Shown here: piece by piece, positions 10,205 to 59,277 of the stretch
Layout of the letters: the number at the start of each line of letters is the position of its first letter
Numbering within the stretch: the first letter of the stretch is position 1
DNA from: a virus
IMG/VR virus record: IMGVR_UViG_3300027734_000002
Location: 1-62,184 of that record
DNA: 62,184 bases
Direction: 5' to 3' (one strand)
Position numbers and translations under genes: made by a program
The notes under the pieces: model-generated
Database searches by the model: none
Told to the model about the DNA's origin: nothing
What the model saw: only the letters and a program-made list of their open reading frames with translations

Positions 10205-10708
10205 ATGGAAATAACACACAACACGCTTCGTTTATTTTGGACTCGCAATCTTGTCGGACACAAGCCAGATCAATCAAAACCATATTATGCAGGGCTTGAT
10301 GCTTGTTGGCTTTGGTCTGGAAGTTTAGCTCCAGACGGATATGGAAAAACTAAAGTTGGCAATGAGTGTCTATCTGCACATAGGCTATCGTGGATAATTC
10401 ATAATGGCGACATACCAACTAGAAAAATGGTAATGCACCTATGTGACAATCGAGCATGTGTAAATCCTGCTCATCTCAAACTTGGAACCACTCAAGAGAA
10501 TACAGCCGACTCAGTGCAAAAAGGTCGCAGAAATCCGGCTATTGGTAAGCAACTGCCACAATCCAAGTTGAACGAGACAAGCGTTTTGGCAATTCGTGAT
10601 GCGGCTAGACGTGGAATACCACAGGCTCAAATAGCGCAAACTTTTGGCCTATGCCAGCAAGCTATTCACAAGGTTGTTGCTAGGAAAACTTGGAATCACG
10701 TTCTTTAA
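10205..10708 (+). CDS. HNH homing-type endonuclease with C-terminal helix-turn-helix (167 aa)
   Basis: The HNH core of the HNH_3 type is clear: CWLWSG near residue 36, AHRLSW near 60, then HLCDNRACVNPAHL near 78-91 with paired Cys and the metal-binding His. The last 45 residues (SVLAIRDAARRGIPQAQIAQ onward) look like a DNA-reading helix-turn-helix, as in phage free-standing homing endonucleases. It is convergent with a glycosyltransferase-like gene; the two TAA stops overlap by four bases. It is isolated on the plus strand within a minus-strand operon, as expected of an inserted selfish gene. Confidence 0.9.
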   Translation: MEITHNTLRLFWTRNLVGHKPDQSKPYYAGLDACWLWSGSLAPDGYGKTKVGNECLSAHRLSWIIHNGDIPTRKMVMHLCDNRACVNPAHLKLGTTQENTADSVQKGRRNPAIGKQLPQSKLNETSVLAIRDAARRGIPQAQIAQTFGLCQQAIHKVVARKTWNHVL

Positions 10709-16165: not shown

Positions 16166-16423
16166 ATGAAACCAATACAAGTAAAAACCACGCAAGGTCA
16201 ACGCTATCGCATCCTCCGAGAGATCAACTGCTTGAGTCAGCAAGAAGTAAATGAGCACATGGGACGTGCCTCAAGTTGGTGCTCGCAGCTAGAAAAAGAC
16301 TGCTTTGAACTGACTATTGATGCAGCATTAAAGATGGCAAAGATGTACAAGGTAACTCTTAGTCAGCTTATTGGAGAAGAAGCGATAGAGGTTTTGCTGA
16401 TGCCAAAAGTGAACGGATTTTGA
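16166..16423 (+). CDS. XRE/Cro-type helix-turn-helix regulator (85 aa)
   Basis: Residues 12-60 fit a Cro/C1-type helix-turn-helix: RYRILREINCLSQQEVNEHM, then WCSQLEKDCF, then ALKMAKMYKVTLSQLIG. It is probably a transcription regulator. No integrase is present, so it need not be a lysogeny repressor. Its TGA overlaps a TTG start of the next small frame. Confidence 0.8.
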   Translation: MKPIQVKTTQGQRYRILREINCLSQQEVNEHMGRASSWCSQLEKDCFELTIDAALKMAKMYKVTLSQLIGEEAIEVLLMPKVNGF

Positions 16424-16605
16424 TTAACAAGATGCACATGAAACTAAAGAAATGGTTCTGTGAAAATGTCGCGTTTATCTCGTGGGGTAAACACTGGAAG
16501 GGCGTTTACCTCCACTGCGTTCACCCGCGCTACTGCGTTCGAGTATTTGTTTGGGGCGTGGACTGGCACTCGAAGCCCAATCATGTCCTGCGTCGCTCTG
16601 CCTAA
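16420..16605 (+). CDS. small Trp/Cys-rich hypothetical protein (61 aa from TTG)
   Basis: The frame opens with TTG overlapping the XRE stop (TTGA). ATGs at 16432 and 16438 are alternative starts giving 57 or 55 aa. The product is rich in Trp, His, Cys and Val (for example FISWGKHWKGVYLHC). Function unknown. Confidence 0.45.
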   Translation: MINKMHMKLKKWFCENVAFISWGKHWKGVYLHCVHPRYCVRVFVWGVDWHSKPNHVLRRSA

Positions 16606-16730
16606 CAAAAAGATCAGCGACGACTGAGCCTTGGCGAAAAAGTTTGCTGCATCGGACGTTCGGCTAAGCAGCCCACAAGCCAGCCAACTGCTTGAATCTC
16701 TTCTGCAATGGATTTGGTTTGTTGGGTGTG

Positions 16731-17267
16731 TTATACATGTTTCCAGACTTTTCTGTTGATGACCGTTTTAATAATAGTGATAGAAACGCCATAAGACCTT
16801 GCCATAGCAGCCTTGGATCGAAACTTTTTCTCAGCAAAGTCTTTTCGGATGCTTAATGCTATTGCTTCATTAATTACCGATCTACCATTATTCGATCCTC
16901 TGACTACTGTTGAGTCTTTTTGCAGGTAATGATTTCCATTGTAGTTGAAGTTGTACCTTCCACGCTCATGTCTTTGTCGCATATTATCCGCATGAGTTCC
17001 CATCGAAAGATGGGCTGGATTGACACATGATGGATTATCACAAGAATGAAGTATGTGCTTCTCCTTTAGGAAAGGTCCGTTTGTTAATTCAAACGCAAGC
17101 CTGTGCGATCTCCACTTGTGACCTTTGTAAAGGTGAAGACCGTAACCAGAATAATTTTTTAATCCAGTCCACCACAAGCAGTCGCTCCCTGGTATGCGTT
17201 TAGTTTTTGACCAAAACTTATTGATCTCTTCTTCTGGTAACGTAATGCTGATTTTAGCTTCTTGCAT
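16731..17267 (-). CDS. HNH homing-type endonuclease with C-terminal helix-turn-helix (178 aa)
   Basis: HNH_3-type core: CLWWTG near residue 30, SHRLAFEL near 54, then HILHSCDNPSCVNPAHLSMG near 71-90. The C-terminal 45 residues (AIALSIRKDFAEKKFRSKAA onward) look like a site-reading helix-turn-helix. It follows the large terminase gene after an 84-bp gap in the same direction, so terminase is the likely neighbour it spreads with. Confidence 0.9.
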   Translation of the reverse strand: MQEAKISITLPEEEINKFWSKTKRIPGSDCLWWTGLKNYSGYGLHLYKGHKWRSHRLAFELTNGPFLKEKHILHSCDNPSCVNPAHLSMGTHADNMRQRHERGRYNFNYNGNHYLQKDSTVVRGSNNGRSVINEAIALSIRKDFAEKKFRSKAAMARSYGVSITIIKTVINRKVWKHV

Positions 17268-17351
17268 GGTAATGACATGTTGGAGGTTAGACGGTTGCTT
17301 CTGTTATCAGCAGATGCAGCCGTTGTTTTTATAAGCCTTGATGATCTAAAG

Positions 17352-19160
17352 TCAATTAGAATAGATGGATGCCAAGCTCATAAATCTTTTCTTCAACGGT
17401 GAAGATTTTCTATCATCTACATTTCCAGGTTTATCTATACTTGATAAACCATGCCTCTCACGGCAGAGCGAAATTAAACAAGCCGCAGAGTCAAAATAAT
17501 CAGGACTTTTTCCGGTTCGACGTTTCATGTCCACTTTGGACTCGACTCTAATGCGCGAACCTCCATCCTGCGCTTTGTTATCCTTGTACCTTCTGACTGT
17601 CATTTCGTCTGCCATTTCTTTCGTGATATTTCTAAGCTGGTCACAACGAATAAGTTCTTTCCCAATCGACCAAAGTTCGCTAACCCTGTTAGCATACCTC
17701 ACGCTTGATTTCTCACGATCAGCAGCAGACACAGGACGATCTGAAGCCTTGCCGCCGAAGTCAACACGCAAGAAAGTGTTGCCCCACTTGCTCCACATGG
17801 CATCAGCAAAGGTCTTGCCACCACCAGCAGACGCATCAATTGCCACATCCTTGATGTCGATTCCATCCTTTTTGCAGATGTCTTTGATTTGGTCAATAAG
17901 CTGCGTAGTGCGGTCAACGTCGCGCTTACTGGCATCGTCATTGAGAAGGATATGGCGCTCAAACTTGAGTCGTTTCTTGCCATCTGTGCAAATGCCAATA
18001 GAGCCAATCGTCATCACCGTTTTGTCACCACCACTGGTATATGAAAGGTCGATGCCGCATACCTTTGTTGGAATCCCCTGCCACACGCAATCCTTGGGTG
18101 TCTTGATGATTTCAGCGGGAGAATAAATATTGTCATCGTCTCCATCAAGCAAGAATGCGCCAAGGACACCTCGCCAGTAAGCTCTTGTATGCTGGCCTAG
18201 TTTTTCTCGCTTCTCTTCCAACATCTCACGAGTCATCAAGAACGGGTAGATCACCTTACCCTCAATGATGTTTGGCGATGTCTCGTTATTGATGCGGATG
18301 ACGTGAGCGCCTTTCCCTTTCCATTCATCCCAATCTGGGTTGTAGCTGTCCCATCCTCCAGGAATAGGCTCACAAAGCTGCCCAAAGGTATCGAATGGCG
18401 AATTGGCGTTAGCTAGAGCGATAAGCTGGACGTTCGGATTCTGCGTCAAGTTTTCCTCGAACGTATTGATGATGGATGGCGAAAGTTCAGCGCACTCGTC
18501 CAGAACAACGATGAGTTTACCGCCAGGACCATGCTTCTGACCTCGAATGGCGCGTGAGGATTCAGCGGCTTTGCTTTGCTCACCTGGAAACAAACGGATG
18601 CCGTACTCATCCATTACAACGCCAGTGTTCAAGTCCATCGACTTGATGCAGTGAGAAGACTCAACCAGCTTTCCAGGAGGTGCTCCAGCCATGCCGTTGA
18701 AGTAACGAGTGATCTGGCCCCAAATACGCCCCATCGAGTCCTTAATAGTCGTAGTGTTGACGAGAACGACGTTCTTGTATGGATTTGCCAACCACCAAAC
18801 GAGGCAGTAAACGGCGAACAAGCCAGTCTTGCCACCAGAACCACCAGACGAGATCGCAAGACGCTTATTCTCAAATGCGGCTTTTGCCATCTTGATCGCC
18901 CAAGGATGCCACATGAACGGAGTTCTACTTCCTGGATAGTTCCAGATGAGGTTCACCGCGTTGACGAAATGAATCCACGCAGGCTTTCCTTGTGGGTTTT
19001 TATCGCCCTTCCAACCGAATAACGAACCAGTTGGACACTTGAGGAAGATCAACTCGACATCAAGTTGATTGCCAAATTGATGATCAAACTTGATGCCATA
19101 CGTCTCGATTGGTCCTCGCGTTAGTTGGACGACGCGAGATTTTTGGGGTTTCTGCTTCAT
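17352..19160 (-). CDS. terL: terminase large subunit (602 aa)
   Basis: This is the packaging motor ATPase/nuclease. The Walker A-like loop SSGGSGGKT is at residues 104-112. Walker B plus catalytic Glu is LIVVLDECAE near 220. The RNase-H-like nuclease start GIDLSYTSGGD is near 370, and a late acidic motif SPDYFDSAA is near 565. Length is usual for TerL. The leader CAACAGAT-ATG has no Shine-Dalgarno site. The small-subunit candidate is far away (46 kb). The order of the nearby lysis genes and TerL differs from classic phages. Confidence 0.93.
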   Translation of the reverse strand: MKQKPQKSRVVQLTRGPIETYGIKFDHQFGNQLDVELIFLKCPTGSLFGWKGDKNPQGKPAWIHFVNAVNLIWNYPGSRTPFMWHPWAIKMAKAAFENKRLAISSGGSGGKTGLFAVYCLVWWLANPYKNVVLVNTTTIKDSMGRIWGQITRYFNGMAGAPPGKLVESSHCIKSMDLNTGVVMDEYGIRLFPGEQSKAAESSRAIRGQKHGPGGKLIVVLDECAELSPSIINTFEENLTQNPNVQLIALANANSPFDTFGQLCEPIPGGWDSYNPDWDEWKGKGAHVIRINNETSPNIIEGKVIYPFLMTREMLEEKREKLGQHTRAYWRGVLGAFLLDGDDDNIYSPAEIIKTPKDCVWQGIPTKVCGIDLSYTSGGDKTVMTIGSIGICTDGKKRLKFERHILLNDDASKRDVDRTTQLIDQIKDICKKDGIDIKDVAIDASAGGGKTFADAMWSKWGNTFLRVDFGGKASDRPVSAADREKSSVRYANRVSELWSIGKELIRCDQLRNITKEMADEMTVRRYKDNKAQDGGSRIRVESKVDMKRRTGKSPDYFDSAACLISLCRERHGLSSIDKPGNVDDRKSSPLKKRFMSLASIYSN

Positions 19161-19211
19161 ATCTGTTGAATGGGTAGTTTAGAACTGGTAAGTTTCAAGA
19201 CTATATGATCT

Positions 19212-19421
19212 ATGAACATCTGCCAAACTTGTTATAAAAACGGGCGATCTCTGTGGCAAGGTTGTTGTCTATGCAGCAAAGACGTGATGACAACCAGCCA
19301 ATTCCACGCTTGGAACGCAACTCGCAGGGTTCATCACGATATACTTCAACCAAAGATTGAGGTAAAGCAGGTGGTCTTTAGAAAGCCAAGGCCGGTCTTT
19401 GGGCAGAGGTTGCAGAAGTGA
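19212..19421 (+). CDS. small Cys-rich putative zinc-binding protein (69 aa)
   Basis: The N-terminus contains CQTC and CCLC spaced like a small zinc ribbon; the C-terminus is basic. It is divergent from terL with only 51 bp between the starts. Its reality rests on the Cys pattern and a plausible start, so confidence is moderate. Confidence 0.4.
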   Translation: MNICQTCYKNGRSLWQGCCLCSKDVMTTSQFHAWNATRRVHHDILQPKIEVKQVVFRKPRPVFGQRLQK

Positions 19422-19458
19422 CTTGCGATAAGTCAATTTACGATGTCATATCTGAAAT

Positions 19459-19686
19459 ATGATAAACCATGAAGTTGAGACTATTGAGGATGCGCTGACG
19501 ATGTTGCAAGCGACTGTATTTGAGCCAGAGTTTGCCGCTCCTTTGATCAGGCGAAATATTGAACACGGGCTTTGTTCAAACTATGAGATTCAGTTCTTCA
19601 AGGGGCAGAATGGCGTCTGCATGACAGCGAAAATAACTCCCAGCTATAAACCCAAATATCTTGGGAAGCACGAAGGTCTGGAGTGA
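19459..19686 (+). CDS. 75-aa hypothetical protein
   Basis: Acidic N-terminal helix (MINHEVETIEDALTML) then a short beta segment (YEIQFFKGQNGVCMTAKI). The leader is GAAAT-ATG. It is convergent with, and almost abuts, the 64-aa minus-strand gene. No family recognised. Confidence 0.6.
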   Translation: MINHEVETIEDALTMLQATVFEPEFAAPLIRRNIEHGLCSNYEIQFFKGQNGVCMTAKITPSYKPKYLGKHEGLE

Positions 19687-19881
19687 TCAACCAAACTTCT
19701 CTACCCACTCGGCTAGAAAACGGCTAAGTGGAATGCCATCTCCATCTGCCGTCATGCACTTGCAGCCTTCTAGCTTGCATTCAATCCAAGTACAGCCGTC
19801 GTGATTGATCTTGGGCGAGTTGCCATGACGGCACTTAGCGCGTGACTCAAACTGGTTTTTGATGACTTCAAAGTCGGTCAT
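19687..19881 (-). CDS. 64-aa hypothetical protein with four Cys
   Basis: Begins MTDFEVIKNQFESRAKCRHG; Cys residues at about 17, 30, 35 and 41 (including CKLEGCKC) could bind metal. Its ATG overlaps by four bases (ATGA) the stop of the ancestral endolysin reading frame preserved at 19878-19916. That shows it once directly followed the endolysin gene. Confidence 0.6.
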   Translation of the reverse strand: MTDFEVIKNQFESRAKCRHGNSPKINHDGCTWIECKLEGCKCMTADGDGIPLSRFLAEWVEKFG

Positions 19882-19916
19882 ACCATGATGCGGATTCGAC
19901 TGCGAATCTTTGAGAT
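19878..19916 (-). pseudogene. stranded ancestral 3' end of the endolysin gene
   Basis: On the minus strand this reads I-S-K-I-R-S-R-I-R-I-M-V-stop, matching the last twelve residues of the working endolysin (V-S-K-I-R-S-R-I-R-L-Q-I) 441 bp away. Eight consecutive residues (SKIRSRIR) are identical, yet all eight codons differ (13 of 24 bases). It ends in an ATGA overlap with the next gene, as an original gene junction would. An HNH gene lies between the two copies. Confidence 0.8.
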
Positions 19917-19955
19917 TAGTTGACGAGGTAATACCGTCAGTATATACTCCATTCT

Positions 19956-20306
19956 ATGGGAACAAATAATCATAAAATCAAAACACCAGAACAACGATTT
20001 TGGAAAAAGGTTCAAAAAACAGATACATGCTGGATTTGGACTGGCGCAGTTACAACTACTGGATATGGCGTATTTCAACGGGGAAAACGAGGAGAAAAGT
20101 TGTATAAAGCACACCGATTTTCTTACAGTTTACATAAAGGAGACATACCGAAGAGAGGATTAATTTTACATTCGTGCGACAATAAAAAATGCGTAAATCC
20201 AGATCATCTCTCTATTGGTAATCATTCAAAGAATCTTAAAGAAGCATGGGATAGAGGAATGCGTATAGTGAATAAAAAATGCGTATCAATTCAGTCTCTA
20301 TTATGA
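19956..20306 (+). CDS. HNH endonuclease inserted at the endolysin 3' end (116 aa)
   Basis: HNH_3-type core: CWIWTG near residue 25, AHRFSYSL near 51, then LILHSCDNKKCVNPDHLSIG near 69-88. It is shorter than the other HNH_3 proteins here (167 and 178 aa) because it lacks the C-terminal helix-turn-helix. It runs antisense between the endolysin stop (12 bp away) and the stranded endolysin end. The arrangement implies arrival with a recoded endolysin terminus. Confidence 0.9.
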   Translation: MGTNNHKIKTPEQRFWKKVQKTDTCWIWTGAVTTTGYGVFQRGKRGEKLYKAHRFSYSLHKGDIPKRGLILHSCDNKKCVNPDHLSIGNHSKNLKEAWDRGMRIVNKKCVSIQSLL

Positions 20307-20318
20307 GGTGTATAAAAA

Positions 20319-20813
20319 CTAAATCTGGAGCCTAATCCTTGACCTTATTTTAGATACATTGCGAATGAGTTTGAAAACGCCACCACCCTCTCGGCTTCCA
20401 GATTTATTACTATTTCCTTCCACTGTTTTTACATTGCCATTTTTGTCAGGAGATGAGAGGGCAATTCCAATGTGGCTGAATGTAAAAATCAAAATATCAC
20501 CAGCCTGAATGTCGCCTTTATGCGGCTTCTTCGTGTGTGTTGATTCGTCTTGTTCACGACTCCAATTCTCGAAGTCCCATGCTCCTGCTGTCCTTGGACG
20601 CTTAAATGTCTTGGTTTCCTTAATTCCAGCTAGCGCCAGAGCCTCACGGAAGCACCAACAAACGTAAGCTGCACACCACGGCCAACCAACTTTTGGATTA
20701 AGCCAAGTGGACGCCTTGTACTCATCAACGCGAGGTCCGCAATTTGTGCCATTGACCTCTGTGACTCCGACTTCTTTGAGTGCTACTTGAACGAGTGCTT
20801 CTGATAGTTTCAT
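20319..20813 (-). CDS. CHAP-type endolysin (164 aa)
   Basis: Cysteine amidase/peptidase of the CHAP/NlpC-P60 superfamily, cleaving peptidoglycan. Catalytic Cys in GWPWCAAYVCW near residue 47, catalytic His in FSHIGIAL near 115, and a following TVEGNSN near 130 as in TIGR02594-type lysins. The last twelve residues replace an ancestral end now stranded beyond the HNH gene. It is coupled (ATGA) to a 33-aa membrane peptide upstream that may serve as holin. Confidence 0.85.
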   Translation of the reverse strand: MKLSEALVQVALKEVGVTEVNGTNCGPRVDEYKASTWLNPKVGWPWCAAYVCWCFREALALAGIKETKTFKRPRTAGAWDFENWSREQDESTHTKKPHKGDIQAGDILIFTFSHIGIALSSPDKNGNVKTVEGNSNKSGSREGGGVFKLIRNVSKIRSRIRLQI

Positions 20814-20911
20814 ACTTTTGGAGAGCTAACAATAATGATGCCCCAAACAAGCAGGCAGATGGCGGTTATCGCAAGAATAGAAACCTGCGCGATAGAGAAA
20901 TCTTGGATCAT
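20810..20911 (-). CDS. 33-aa single-span membrane peptide, holin candidate
   Basis: The frame encodes one hydrophobic helix (VSILAITAICLLVWGIIIV) between short polar ends. Its ATG overlaps the stop of the metallopeptidase-like gene and its TGA overlaps the endolysin ATG. Position directly before the endolysin, with translational coupling on both sides, favours a small holin or holin-like peptide. Confidence 0.6.
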   Translation of the reverse strand: MIQDFSIAQVSILAITAICLLVWGIIIVSSPKV

Positions 20912-21550: not shown

Positions 21551-22549
21551 TTAATCAACAAAGATTGGGAACGTGACCGTTCTTCCGTATCGCTTGTCAA
21601 AGATAAAGCCAGTCTGTGATGGTGGCTCGTAAGGTGCCTTGATGGCGATGGAGTAAGCATTGAAGCCAATCAAGCTCCCGTTGCATACCCACTTAGGATT
21701 TTGCTGGCTTTGATGCCAATGACCAAAGATGTCTAGGTCTGCTGGAACACCCTTGTTCCACGAGGAAATGGCCTTCTCAACTGGGATGGTCAATCCACCA
21801 ACGCCACCTTGGTATTGTAAGCCGTCTCCGTGATGAATGCGAAGCGTTTTGCCATAGAGGTCCAGAAGCAAATGGTAGCCGTCAGAAACGTGCCAAGAAG
21901 CCTTGTCGGCAAGATGCTTCGCCATTGTTTTGTAAAGCATCCACTCATAGCTGTTGGCAGCGCCTGTAGCATGACGAGGCTTGCGAGTGTTACGCCCATG
22001 ATTCCCATAGCAACATGGAATCACAATTTCTCCAAAGTGCTTGGACAGCAATTCAACCCCACTGGCGATCTGATCTTGAAGCCACAACACTGTCTGAGTT
22101 GGAGACAAAGCGTTATTCTCCAACAGTTCCTCATGGATGTAGCCGGTCATTAAATCGCCGCCCAAAATCAATACAAGGCGATCAATTTTGGCACCATGGC
22201 GTTGAATCTTCGCCATGCGAATAATCGAGTTCCAAAAGCGATTGATTCGCTGTTCAGCAATATCAAGATTGAACTCGTTGAGGTTGTTGATGGTTTTTCC
22301 TTCAACTGTCTCTTCGACATGCCAATCTGATGCGACAGCTACAAAAGTTGCTTCGGAGTCAAAATCACTGACCGCATTGATCTTGGATGCAACAGGCTTA
22401 ACGCCACCGATTCCAAGTGCGATATTAAGCTGATTGTCCTTTTCTGAAATGACGTTGAGCAGCTTTTTACGCTCACTCTCAAAGTCGGCCACAGTCTTCT
22501 TGTGGCGAATCTCTTGGGTTTCATGAACAGCGGTGGACCAGTTTTTCAT
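21551..22549 (-). CDS. calcineurin-like metallophosphoesterase (332 aa)
   Basis: The metal ligands of the metallophosphatase fold are all visible: SDWH near residue 74, GGDLMTG near 128, GNHGR near 183, IHHGD near 239 and FGHWHQ near 275. An N-terminal coil (residues 15-45) precedes the fold. Substrate unknown; phage members may act on nucleic-acid ends or on host cyclic nucleotides. It sits in the lysis/tail region in the late operon. Confidence 0.8.
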   Translation of the reverse strand: MKNWSTAVHETQEIRHKKTVADFESERKKLLNVISEKDNQLNIALGIGGVKPVASKINAVSDFDSEATFVAVASDWHVEETVEGKTINNLNEFNLDIAEQRINRFWNSIIRMAKIQRHGAKIDRLVLILGGDLMTGYIHEELLENNALSPTQTVLWLQDQIASGVELLSKHFGEIVIPCCYGNHGRNTRKPRHATGAANSYEWMLYKTMAKHLADKASWHVSDGYHLLLDLYGKTLRIHHGDGLQYQGGVGGLTIPVEKAISSWNKGVPADLDIFGHWHQSQQNPKWVCNGSLIGFNAYSIAIKAPYEPPSQTGFIFDKRYGRTVTFPIFVD

Positions 22550-55169: not shown

Positions 55170-55982
55170 ATGAATTTTTCACTGTTAGATCAACTGATGG
55201 AAAAAACAGTGGCGTTTAAGCCGCTGTTAGCTCGAATGACAAATTCAGTAACGGCAGGGCTAATGTTAAGTCAGGCTTATTATTGGAGCAGTCGAACAAA
55301 AGACCCTAATGGGTGGTTTTATAAAACCCAAGAAGAGTGGGAGGTGGAAACCTGCTTGACTAGATATGAGCAGGAGGGCGCTCGCAAGATTTTGCGCGAG
55401 AAGTCATTTTGGGAGGAAAAGAGATGCGGAATACCCGCTCAACTCTACTACCGCATTAATCTTTCTGCTTTTTGGGCTTCGGCTACCGCTAGCGCCAATG
55501 AATATCAATTAACGTCCAGTATGCGGAAAAACCACATACTGGATTGTGGAGAACCAGCAATCCAGATTCCTGTTTTTCCCCAAACTACTATATGTACAGA
55601 GAGTACATCAGAGAATACACCATTACCGGCAATAAATGCCGGAGAGGTTTTGAGGCTTAATTCTTCAATGCCAATACCCAAAAGGCGCGGCAGACCTCCA
55701 CTTCCAGCAGACCCCAGATTCCATCCATTCATCACCGCCTATTCAGATGGCTACATCAAGACATTTGGTGAAAAGTACTATTTCCAGCCAAAGGATGCCA
55801 AGCAGCTTCAAGGATTCCTCCGCATCTGCGATAAAGACATCCAAGAACTGATCCACATTGTTTCTTGGTGCTGGGAGCGATCAAAAGACAAGTTTTGCCC
55901 AGCTTTTGTTAGGGCATCTACAATTTTCGACTTTTGCCAAAATTGGCCGAAGATTATCGTGGAGGCTCAGAAACAACAATGA
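55170..55982 (+). CDS. replication initiator/organiser-like protein (270 aa)
   Basis: N-terminal winged-helix-like region (TAGLMLSQAYYWSSRTKDPN; KTQEEWEVETCLTRYEQEGA) as in phage replication O/DnaD-like proteins, a Pro/Arg linker (PIPKRRGRPPLP) and a helical C-terminal domain. It sits directly before, and overlaps by four bases, the DnaB-type helicase, its expected partner. Probably binds the origin or loads the helicase. Confidence 0.65.
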   Translation: MNFSLLDQLMEKTVAFKPLLARMTNSVTAGLMLSQAYYWSSRTKDPNGWFYKTQEEWEVETCLTRYEQEGARKILREKSFWEEKRCGIPAQLYYRINLSAFWASATASANEYQLTSSMRKNHILDCGEPAIQIPVFPQTTICTESTSENTPLPAINAGEVLRLNSSMPIPKRRGRPPLPADPRFHPFITAYSDGYIKTFGEKYYFQPKDAKQLQGFLRICDKDIQELIHIVSWCWERSKDKFCPAFVRASTIFDFCQNWPKIIVEAQKQQ

Positions 55983-57346
55983 CACAACCACCCACAACCG
56001 AGGATCTTCTAGCCTCTCTCAACAAGCAGCTTCCGTATGACGATGATACGGAGCAAGCGATCCTCTCATGCTTGCTTCAACGACCATCGCTGTGTGATGA
56101 AGCGCCCCATGCCGAGATCATGTATCATGAGGCAAATCGTATCATCCTCACAACAATTATCGGTCTATTCGCAGCAGGTAAGCCGATTGATCAAATCTCA
56201 CTCACTCATGCTCTCAGAAATGCGAATAAGCTGACTATCGTTGGTGGACCTGCGTTCATCAGTGAGCTTTTCACACTGATTCCGTCTGCTTCTAATTATC
56301 AGTATTACCTAACCATCTTGCGGGACAAATTTGCGTTCCGCCAGATGATCGGTGCCATGGCTGCTGGTATTGCCCATTTGCAGGCGTTTCAAGAGGCCGA
56401 TGGCGTTTCCGCTACTGATGCCATCCAGCACGTCACCAAGCTCGTCTGTGAGGCTGTAAACGATGATTCCAGCGCAGATTTGCCATGTCGTCAAATTGGA
56501 GAGCTTTTAACAGACGTTTTGAATGGAATCGAGGAGCGTTGCGCCAATCCAGGCAAGATTCCAGGCATCTCCACCGGCTTTGCTGGTTTCGATAAATACC
56601 TTGGTGGGTTAGAGGATGGACGACTAACTGTTATCGCCGGTGAATCCAGTGACGGTAAAAGCTGCCTTGCTCGTCAATTTGTGGAATCAGCATGCCTTCA
56701 GGATCATGTTGGCGTGATCTACACCTACGAGATGCGAGACACGGAAGAGGCTGGAAGATTGATTTGCTCACAAGCCGGTATTGATTCTAGTAATTTGAAA
56801 CATGGGATGCTGACTCGTGTTGAGCATCAAAGCATTGGCGTCAAAACGATGCGTCTATCCAAGTGGCCGATTTCCATCGTGGATGTAGCTGGCAAGACCA
56901 TTGAACAAATCTGCCGAGACATCGCTAGGCGCTCGAAGCGATTGAAGCAGGGGCAGAAATTGGTGGCTTCCATTGATTACATTCAACTCTGCCTGACATC
57001 CAAAACCAATGGTGGAAACCGTGAACGAGAAGTTGCACACATCACGGCCACAGCAAAGCAGTGTGCTAAAATGACTGGTGCTCACATTATCATGCCATCA
57101 CAGCTTAATGAGGATGGAAAGGTTCGTGAGTCGCGAGCTATCGAGCAAGATTCAGATAATTTGATAATCATCCAAAAGCCCTTTGAAAAGCAGGCTAAGG
57201 CATGGGAGAAAAAGAAGGAGGATGAGCCGAATTACGAGAGGAACCTGTTTATCAAGAAAAACAGAAATGGAGAGAGGCTGAAAATCGTTAAGGCAACCCT
57301 TAATGGAAGGTTCTTCCGTTTTGATCCAGCAAGAGAAAATGAGTAA
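55979..57346 (+). CDS. DnaB-like replicative helicase (455 aa)
   Basis: N-terminal DnaB domain (YDDDTEQAILSCLLQRPSLC) then the RecA-like motor: ISTGFAGFDKYLGGLEDGRL, Walker A GESSDGKSCLARQ near residue 222, EMRDTEE near 256, DYIQL near 328, and a C-terminal QLNEDGKVRESRAIEQDSDN segment. Length is normal. It unwinds duplex DNA at the fork. I see no phage DNA polymerase or primase, so the host's are probably used. ATG 55979 overlaps the initiator stop (ATGA). Confidence 0.92.
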   Translation: MTQPPTTEDLLASLNKQLPYDDDTEQAILSCLLQRPSLCDEAPHAEIMYHEANRIILTTIIGLFAAGKPIDQISLTHALRNANKLTIVGGPAFISELFTLIPSASNYQYYLTILRDKFAFRQMIGAMAAGIAHLQAFQEADGVSATDAIQHVTKLVCEAVNDDSSADLPCRQIGELLTDVLNGIEERCANPGKIPGISTGFAGFDKYLGGLEDGRLTVIAGESSDGKSCLARQFVESACLQDHVGVIYTYEMRDTEEAGRLICSQAGIDSSNLKHGMLTRVEHQSIGVKTMRLSKWPISIVDVAGKTIEQICRDIARRSKRLKQGQKLVASIDYIQLCLTSKTNGGNREREVAHITATAKQCAKMTGAHIIMPSQLNEDGKVRESRAIEQDSDNLIIIQKPFEKQAKAWEKKKEDEPNYERNLFIKKNRNGERLKIVKATLNGRFFRFDPARENE

Positions 57347-57347
57347 T

Positions 57348-57920
57348 ATGAAAAAACCATTCTATACACCAAACAGAAATGAGGAATTAGCTGCAAATAT
57401 GGGATTCCGTATCACACCTGATGGAAAAACTATCACAAAACCAGACGGTTCGATTGTTGGTCAATCACTAAGTAATATTGGTTATCGAGTGTTTTCATTC
57501 GGCCCAAAAACAAAGCGTTGTAAGTGCCTTGTTCACCGCTTCAACGCTTGGTTTAAATTTGGCGATGAAATCTACCAGCCTAATATCGTATGCCGCCACC
57601 TAGATGGAAACTCATTGAATAATCACATTGATAATATTATGCCAGGAACATCATCACAAAACATGATGGATCGACCTGCTGAAGCTAGGCACGCTCACGC
57701 ATTTGCCACTTCCAGGCATGCCATGAAGCATGATCATGTGAAGATTATTGAGTACTATAAAGAGAATGGATTCAACAAAACCATGGTTGAGTTTGGTTTA
57801 AGCAGTAGAGGGACGCTTTCATTTATCATCAACAAGACACAAACAGCACTTCCTGTTCCTGTGAGTGAAAGACCAAAAAGAAAAATCCCACTTGCATCTC
57901 AACCAAAAACGGACGTATAG
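57348..57920 (+). CDS. HNH_3-type endonuclease (190 aa)
   Basis: CLVHRFNAWFKFG near residue 60, then VCRHLDGNSLNNHIDNIMPG near 82-101 give the HNH_3 core with HLDGN. A DNA-reading helical tail (IIEYYKENGFNKTMVEFGLS) follows. It starts one base after the helicase stop (TAATATG), so the helicase gene is the probable associated target. Confidence 0.82.
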   Translation: MKKPFYTPNRNEELAANMGFRITPDGKTITKPDGSIVGQSLSNIGYRVFSFGPKTKRCKCLVHRFNAWFKFGDEIYQPNIVCRHLDGNSLNNHIDNIMPGTSSQNMMDRPAEARHAHAFATSRHAMKHDHVKIIEYYKENGFNKTMVEFGLSSRGTLSFIINKTQTALPVPVSERPKRKIPLASQPKTDV

Positions 57921-58490: not shown

Positions 58491-58643
58491 ATGAAAAATG
58501 AACTCAAAAATCAACACGCCGTTCTCCTTGGAAGTCTTGGAGGCAAAGCAAGCTCAAAGGTTAGAAGCAAAAGAAAAACTGCGGCCTCACGCGAAAACGG
58601 TAAAAAGGGTGGGAGGCCAAGGAAAAATATTTTGCCAGAATGA
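58491..58643 (+). CDS. 50-aa KGGRP-motif peptide, copy 2
   Basis: Reads MKNELKNQHAVLLGSLGGKA, then ASRENGKKGGRPRKNILPE. Paralogue of the peptide at 53273. It is overlapped almost entirely by the open frame of the following CxCG-HNH gene in the +1 frame. Confidence 0.65.
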   Translation: MKNELKNQHAVLLGSLGGKASSKVRSKRKTAASRENGKKGGRPRKNILPE

Positions 58644-59277
58644 TTTTGAAGGCAAGCAATTTGGATTTTTAACTCCACTTGGAAGGTCTGAATCAAAATC
58701 AAAGTACGGAGTTGTGTGGAGATTCAAATGCAAATGTGGCAATGAGGTTGAGAAGATAGCTCACAGAGTTTTTTCTGGAGGGGTGAGAAGCTGTGGCTGT
58801 TACGCAGCACCTATTAGGGGAGGCTTAAAGCACGGCCTTCATGGTCACTATCTATATAACCAATGGTGCGGTATTATAGGAAGATGCACCAATCCAAATA
58901 ATTCAAGATGGGAGTCTTATGGAGGAAGAGGTATTTGCATCTCTCCAGAGTGGAGAAATGATCCTCAAAAGTTTTTAGACTACATGGGTCCAAGACCTTC
59001 CGTAAATCATTCTATCGACAGAATAGACAATGATAAGGGTTACGAACCTGGGAATTTGAGATGGGCTGATAGAAAGACTCAGCAAAGAAATCGAAGATCC
59101 AATGTTGTTATTGAATACAATGGTCAAAAAATGTGCGTAACTGAATGGGCTGAAAAAATAGGATTAGAATATAGCTGCTTGAGTGCAAGGCTCAAAAGAG
59201 GATGGAAACTTGAAAGGGCCATGTCATCAAAAAGTTATAAATTTGAACAATGCAATCACCGCATCCAGCAAGGATGA
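58498..59277 (+). CDS. CxCG-type HNH homing endonuclease (open for 259 aa)
   Basis: Zinc domain: FEGKQFGFLTPLGRSESKSK, WRFKCKCGNEV, VRSCGCYAA. HNH region: RCTNPNNSRWESYGGRGICI, HSIDRIDNDKGYEPGNLRWA. No ATG lies between the end of the KGGRP peptide and the zinc domain, so it must start at ATG 58498, at GTG 58609, or by frameshift from the peptide. Its 3' end overlaps the 215-aa gene's 3' end by 22 bp. Confidence 0.82.
   Translation: MNSKINTPFSLEVLEAKQAQRLEAKEKLRPHAKTVKRVGGQGKIFCQNDFEGKQFGFLTPLGRSESKSKYGVVWRFKCKCGNEVEKIAHRVFSGGVRSCGCYAAPIRGGLKHGLHGHYLYNQWCGIIGRCTNPNNSRWESYGGRGICISPEWRNDPQKFLDYMGPRPSVNHSIDRIDNDKGYEPGNLRWADRKTQQRNRRSNVVIEYNGQKMCVTEWAEKIGLEYSCLSARLKRGWKLERAMSSKSYKFEQCNHRIQQG

Follow-up and report, generated by a model that had tools for sequence, protein, structure and literature searches.

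At the yeast gene FBA1, the mobile unit of WHO elements consists of a nuclease gene and a 3' end that confers resistance, and the old end of the gene is left behind as a fragment (PMC7282813). As appears to be the case in the phage loci described here, the endonuclease gene homes jointly with a divergent 3' end for the host gene, making the host gene a chimera (PMC7282813). The mORFs of fungal mitochondria (Allomyces atp6; Glomus atp6, atp9, cox2, and nad3) have a similar layout, with a foreign C-terminus, an endonuclease ORF, and a duplicate of the native C-terminus; this native copy is the one closest to relatives (PMC3630166). The free-standing homing endonucleases of phage T4 (Seg and Mob) also adjoin their target genes and home with co-conversion and marker exclusion (PMC2988022). 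Finally, some integrative elements supply a replacement end of the gene they target.

We analyzed a 62,184-nucleotide stretch of viral DNA (IMG/VR record IMGVR_UViG_3300027734_000002; hereafter the window), in which an endolysin gene and a neighboring HNH gene are arranged as follows:

20319..20813, minus strand: endolysin gene with a CHAP domain (Pfam CHAP 6e-8; PHROG endolysin 3e-12), its own body joined to a foreign tail
20319..20435, minus strand: new endolysin 3' end, from codon 127 through the stop, of divergent donor origin
19956..20306, plus strand: HNH1, free-standing homing endonuclease gene of the HNH_3 type, lying antisense to the endolysin (Pfam HNH_3 8e-8)
19920..19948, plus strand: promoter-like site TTGACG-17-TATACT between the remnant and the HNH1 start (consensus match only)
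19878..19916, minus strand: displaced ancestral endolysin 3' end (SKIRSRIRIMV-stop), now a remnant
19687..19881, minus strand: next gene, 64 aa, of unknown function; its start overlaps the remnant's stop as ATGA

A search of viral contigs provided 31 relatives of the endolysin. HNH1 is present at this one site in the window, L001, and L002 and absent from L003–L016, which we refer to as HEG-less (lacking the homing endonuclease gene). In all 14 HEG-less relatives the endolysin ends ISKIRSRIRIMV-stop, with DNA identical to the orphan stretch at 19878–19916, and the same ATGA overlap with the 64-aa gene follows their intact endolysin. The window endolysin itself ends SKIRSRIRLQI-stop. Its codons 1–126 are 96–98% identical in nucleotide sequence to the HEG-less relatives, and over its last 38 codons identity falls abruptly to 58–59% (58% in amino acids). 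Because the HEG-less relatives end like the orphan and identity drops at codon 127 (~20435), the working endolysin is a chimera in which about 38 codons plus the stop were replaced, and the orphan behind HNH1 is its former end. The match of the orphan to the endolysin end is not due to chance, since the orphan belongs to a block, running from 19916 (where the blastn block starts) down to 17421, that is collinear with the HEG-less relatives. An assembly artefact was considered and judged unlikely because L001 and L002, contigs from different samples, carry the same arrangement; L001 is identical to the window across the 10,492 bases compared, and the new tail and HNH1 were common only to L001 and L002 among the relatives compared. 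Compared with L002, the window differs at 2 of 519 sites within the element and at 32 of 1217 in the flanks (p = 6e-4), a pattern that may reflect recent spread but does not prove it, as local differences in rate could also explain it. Promoter-like consensus sites such as that at 19920..19948 were not more numerous than in shuffled sequences.

The same window contains a second HNH gene, adjoining a terminase-like gene:

17352..19160, minus strand: terminase-large-subunit-like gene, chimeric; conserved in relatives, with Walker A/B and nuclease motifs only
17352..17550, minus strand: replacement 3' end of the terminase-like gene; nucleotide identity to L002 is 92–98% upstream and 47–77% here
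16731..17267, minus strand: HNH2, homing endonuclease gene immediately following the terminase-like gene (Pfam HNH_3 2e-10)
16664..16734, minus strand: ancestral 3' end of the terminase-like gene, now displaced

HNH2 is found in the window and L001 and not in L002. All relatives covering its place, including the HNH1-bearing L002, run straight from window position 17421 to 16734. The terminase-like protein ends GNVDDRKSSPLKKRFMSLASIYSN-stop in the window and GNHTPGKPNPLQKRFKQLAGLWAA-stop in the relatives, with divergence beginning near 17550. Right behind the HNH2 stop stands NTPNKPNPLQKRFKQLAGLWAA-stop, the counterpart of the HTPGKPNPLQKRFKQLAGLWAA-stop with which the relatives end. The new tail is partly like that of a more distant phage (L118), with YFDSAA, GNV, and SPLKK in common. 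Both HNH1 and HNH2 score over the Pfam HNH_3 cut-off and keep the invariant catalytic and zinc residues in alignment. HNH2 marks a second, independent instance of the architecture at the endolysin. That the gene at 17352..19160 encodes a terminase large subunit is tentative: the identification rests on motifs read in the sequence, because no HMM matched (Pfam and PHROG among the searches) and the AlphaFold model was uninformative (pLDDT 32).

The sequences closest to the new endolysin tail are more distant endolysins (L024–L026), at only 60–61% identity in DNA; no donor phage with the same tail and without a remnant was found in the phages, viral contigs, or genomes searched. GC3 is 0.42 in the endolysin body, compared with 0.32 in its tail and 0.24 in HNH1, and 0.33 in the terminase-like tail vs. 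0.54 in its body, which probably points to a foreign origin of the tails and HNH1. The share of synonymously different codons between the window tail and the relatives is 0.64, and pairs of natural lineages range from 0.44 to 0.83. Special recoding need not be invoked, since such divergence is usual for distant natural relatives and a divergent donor gene explains the tail.

A first-pass annotation of the endolysin locus had reported the two related peptides with their coordinates, their 441-bp offset, the ATGA overlap, and 13 differences among the 24 bases encoding SKIRSRIR, all of which held. It had seen a replaced tail of 12 codons, which was only partly right given the switch at codon 127, and had described the tail as synonymously recoded, which holds for the eight-residue core and not over the 38 codons. 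Its suggestion that the tail was specially recoded failed and was rejected, the codon differences being the ordinary divergence of a donor gene. The proposal that a free-standing homing gene brought its own tail of the host gene is supported by the 14 HEG-less relatives and the identity step, and passed a refutation check set beforehand: 14 of 14 relatives end like 19878–19916 and none like 20319–20357. Its claim that the insertion destroyed the cleavage site and blocked recombinational loss remains inference, and it had missed both the second case and the generality of the arrangement.

To assess how general the architecture is, we took 352 distinct phage HNH ORFs and looked for cases in which the terminal peptide of a flanking gene occurs again on the far side of the HNH gene, using GC-matched mismatched pairs (n = 1487) as a control. 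Scores of at least 60 were reached in 11 of 550 flank tests and in 0 of 1487 mismatched pairs; at a score of at least 55, 13 were observed and 0.4 expected. Nine loci at the higher threshold were convincing by eye. High-scoring Arg/Pro-rich matches (e.g., L228 and L131) were dropped as composition noise, and a short match in L041 was set aside because it involved no gene end. About ten further phage loci have the same architecture, including mirror-image replacements of 5' ends:

L081, 3' end: primase-like gene
L070, 3' end: class II ribonucleotide reductase
L180, 3' end: class II ribonucleotide reductase; exact 38-bp duplicate
L401, 3' end: PD-(D/E)XK exonuclease
L379, 3' end: virion morphogenesis protein
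L181, 3' end: unknown gene
L265, 3' end: weaker case
L385, 5' end: P22-type gene 10 homologue
L178, 5' end: methyltransferase-like gene (by motifs read in the sequence, no HMM match)
L376 and L450, 5' ends: helicases

The ribonucleotide reductase gene of L180 (328–2950) carries an intein as well as an HNH gene at its 3' end, and the 38-bp duplicate is fused in frame to the HNH C-terminus.

Three screen cases (the primase, the ribonucleotide reductase, and the gene 10 homologue of UPF_BP1) were confirmed against HEG-less relatives. The primase of L322, which lacks the nuclease gene, ends like the L081 remnant, and NrdJ of phage DSL-LC01 ends like the L070 remnant, with 89% identity in DNA there vs. 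72% elsewhere. Salmonella phage UPF_BP1 and L385 retain, upstream of the HNH gene, the old start of their Sf6 gene 8/P22 gene 10 homologue; that of L385 is 97–100% identical to Sf6 over 90 nt. The new start of both shows 47–73% identity over 40 codons, past which identity jumps to 83–100% (UPF_BP1) or 87–100% (L385). The UPF_BP1 locus mirrors, in an isolated phage, the arrangement seen in the window. In its record (L456; KX776161) the tail accessory protein is annotated to start at 1609, and the replacement N-terminus starts at 1501, inside the HNH gene; the annotated start, which ignores 1501–1609, is probably an error. Altogether, the remnant is the real gene end of HEG-less relatives in five cases (endolysin, terminase-like gene, L081 primase, L070 NrdJ, and the UPF_BP1/L385 gene 10 homologue), and a sharp identity step marks the junction in the endolysin, the terminase-like gene, and the gene 10 homologue.

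Further HNH genes in the window and its relatives gave no additional case. For the gene at 10205–10708, the neighboring gene is absent from relatives, and for that at 57303–57920 the whole helicase gene differs in relatives and there is no tail remnant. At this latter place (55934–57920) the window has a DnaB-type helicase plus the HNH gene, several relatives have a different gene of 529–581 aa, and the shared right junction falls immediately past the stop, at 57883; a whole-gene version of end swapping is conceivable here. A third HNH gene (L015 5418–6056, also in L012 and L014) lies between two convergent genes; the last 7–8 codons of its neighbor differ sharply, and no remnant is present. 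Separately, L002, L003, and L016 (e.g., L016 2836–3825) have an intein-like, in-frame insertion of ~990 bp in a metallophosphoesterase/exonuclease-like gene, the site of which is empty in the window (21988–21992), and a 259-aa ORF at window 58498–59277 has a homing-endonuclease-like motif, seen by eye only.

The most plausible rival explanation is ordinary phage mosaicism, in which the gene end was exchanged with another phage by homologous recombination, leaving the HNH gene as a mere passenger at the recombination boundary. Nuclease genes are known at boundaries of exchange between phages (PMC10448857), and switching a gene end does not in itself require a nuclease. Plain exchange, however, leaves no second copy, and the old end stays beyond the HNH gene in every case; nor does it readily account for recurrence at a dozen unrelated genes beside HNH ORFs, far above mismatched controls. 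We therefore regard mosaicism alone as unlikely. It is less likely still that, following insertion, selection changed the codons of the existing tail and so allowed it to escape a resident nuclease. All eight SKIRSRIR codons, which adjoin the inferred cut, differ compared with 6 of 14 other shared codons (Fisher p = 0.018, post hoc), but the divergence sets in ~75 nt farther upstream and extends to 42% of the amino acids, the synonymous difference equals that of natural pairs, the composition is foreign, and recoding in place makes no duplicate.

An intron or split gene, with the HNH gene inside a removed intervening sequence and the remnant as a true exon, can be all but excluded. Co-directional cases give it some support; at the terminase-like gene, for example, joining 17421 to 16734 restores the ancestral frame. 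Against it, the gene is already complete with a homologous tail and a stop codon, and HNH1 is antisense to the endolysin. No intron family, group I intron RNA included, reached the Rfam gathering score around the HNH genes of the window or in 11 other cases, and window 16400–20900 gave only a sub-threshold nuoG match.

We thus favor a model in which free-standing phage homing genes travel as a unit with an end of the target gene that is divergent and probably resistant to cleavage. The chimeric gene end, the linked nuclease gene, the retained old end, and the repeated origin are shown; the movement as a unit is likely, with cleavage and immunity inferred in the absence of cleavage data. HNH1 would have entered the endolysin end, bringing along a divergent version of this end derived from a different phage lineage. 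The nuclease would cut the old gene end, near where the remnant now begins, and the break would be repaired from the donor by homologous copying on the gene-body side and, on the opposite side, by joining or by repair guided by the remnant. The order observed is the recipient body joined in frame to the foreign tail, then the HNH gene, then the old tail as a cut-off remnant. The donor end is presumed resistant from its divergence only, so that the mobile unit would comprise the nuclease gene plus a resistant gene end. The architecture itself arose independently at the terminase-like gene and at about ten further phage genes, at either the 3' or the 5' end. The argument is weakest on whether the replaced end is resistant and on where exactly the nuclease cuts, both of which are inferred; the cut can be placed only approximately because the body/tail switch points in the window lie ~75–130 nt farther upstream than the beginning of the remnant. 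That HNH1 or HNH2 cuts the HEG-less allele and that the HNH gene is preferentially inherited are likewise inferred from sequence alone, and the 5' cases require use of the new start, which has not been shown.

Among known systems, the fungal mitochondrial elements had been named in the first-pass annotation, and this parallel held (PMC3630166); the yeast WHO elements are even closer (PMC7282813). The phage cases have the WHO architecture, with a chimeric host gene, a divergent end beside the nuclease gene, and the old end beyond it, the resistance of the new end being inferred from its divergence. WHO elements differ in that they encode an intein-like zinc-finger protein and home repeatedly at one nuclear yeast gene, whereas the phage elements encode HNH_3 proteins and occupy many different genes of phage genomes, including 5' ends. 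HNH1 and HNH2 do not belong to the WHO protein family, which combines an intein-like domain with a zinc finger: they match only HNH_3 and, below cut-off, zf-His_Me_endon, so the resemblance is one of working and not of descent. The fungal mORFs differ in being organellar, in encoding LAGLIDADG proteins in Glomus atp6, and in that a mORF may share the reading frame of the gene; the sections of PMC3630166 bearing on mORFs contain no phage case. Given their HNH_3 proteins, the phage elements belong to neither group by descent. T4 Seg and Mob genes differ in that they are described as intergenic or gene-splitting insertions whose cut site is often hundreds of bases away, and no displaced gene-end remnant is mentioned for them in the bearing sections of PMC2988022. 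Integrative elements that rebuild gene ends use integrases and att sites, and no integrase was seen in the phage inserts examined here. We found no phage example of gene-end-swapping homing in the open-access literature searched (including PMC2988022, PMC10448857, PMC12724721, and PMC3984707), which is not proof of absence.

The phage elements offer a specific explanation for the abrupt chimeric ends of essential phage genes and for orphan gene-end fragments beside HNH genes, and they correct annotation, e.g., where the gene 10 homologue of UPF_BP1 begins. Since the remnant shows roughly where the inferred cut falls, it should be possible to predict the sites targeted by uncharacterised nucleases. 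In a bolder reading, toward which we lean with reservations, phages carry widespread homing elements made of an HNH nuclease gene and a resistant 5' or 3' gene end; because each homing event would swap the end of an essential gene, they would be a specific, recognisable engine of mosaic gene ends, convergent with the yeast WHO and fungal mitochondrial elements. The gene-end-swapping homing of yeast nuclei and fungal mitochondria probably occurs in phages as well, with unrelated nucleases, at both gene ends, and in many types of gene.
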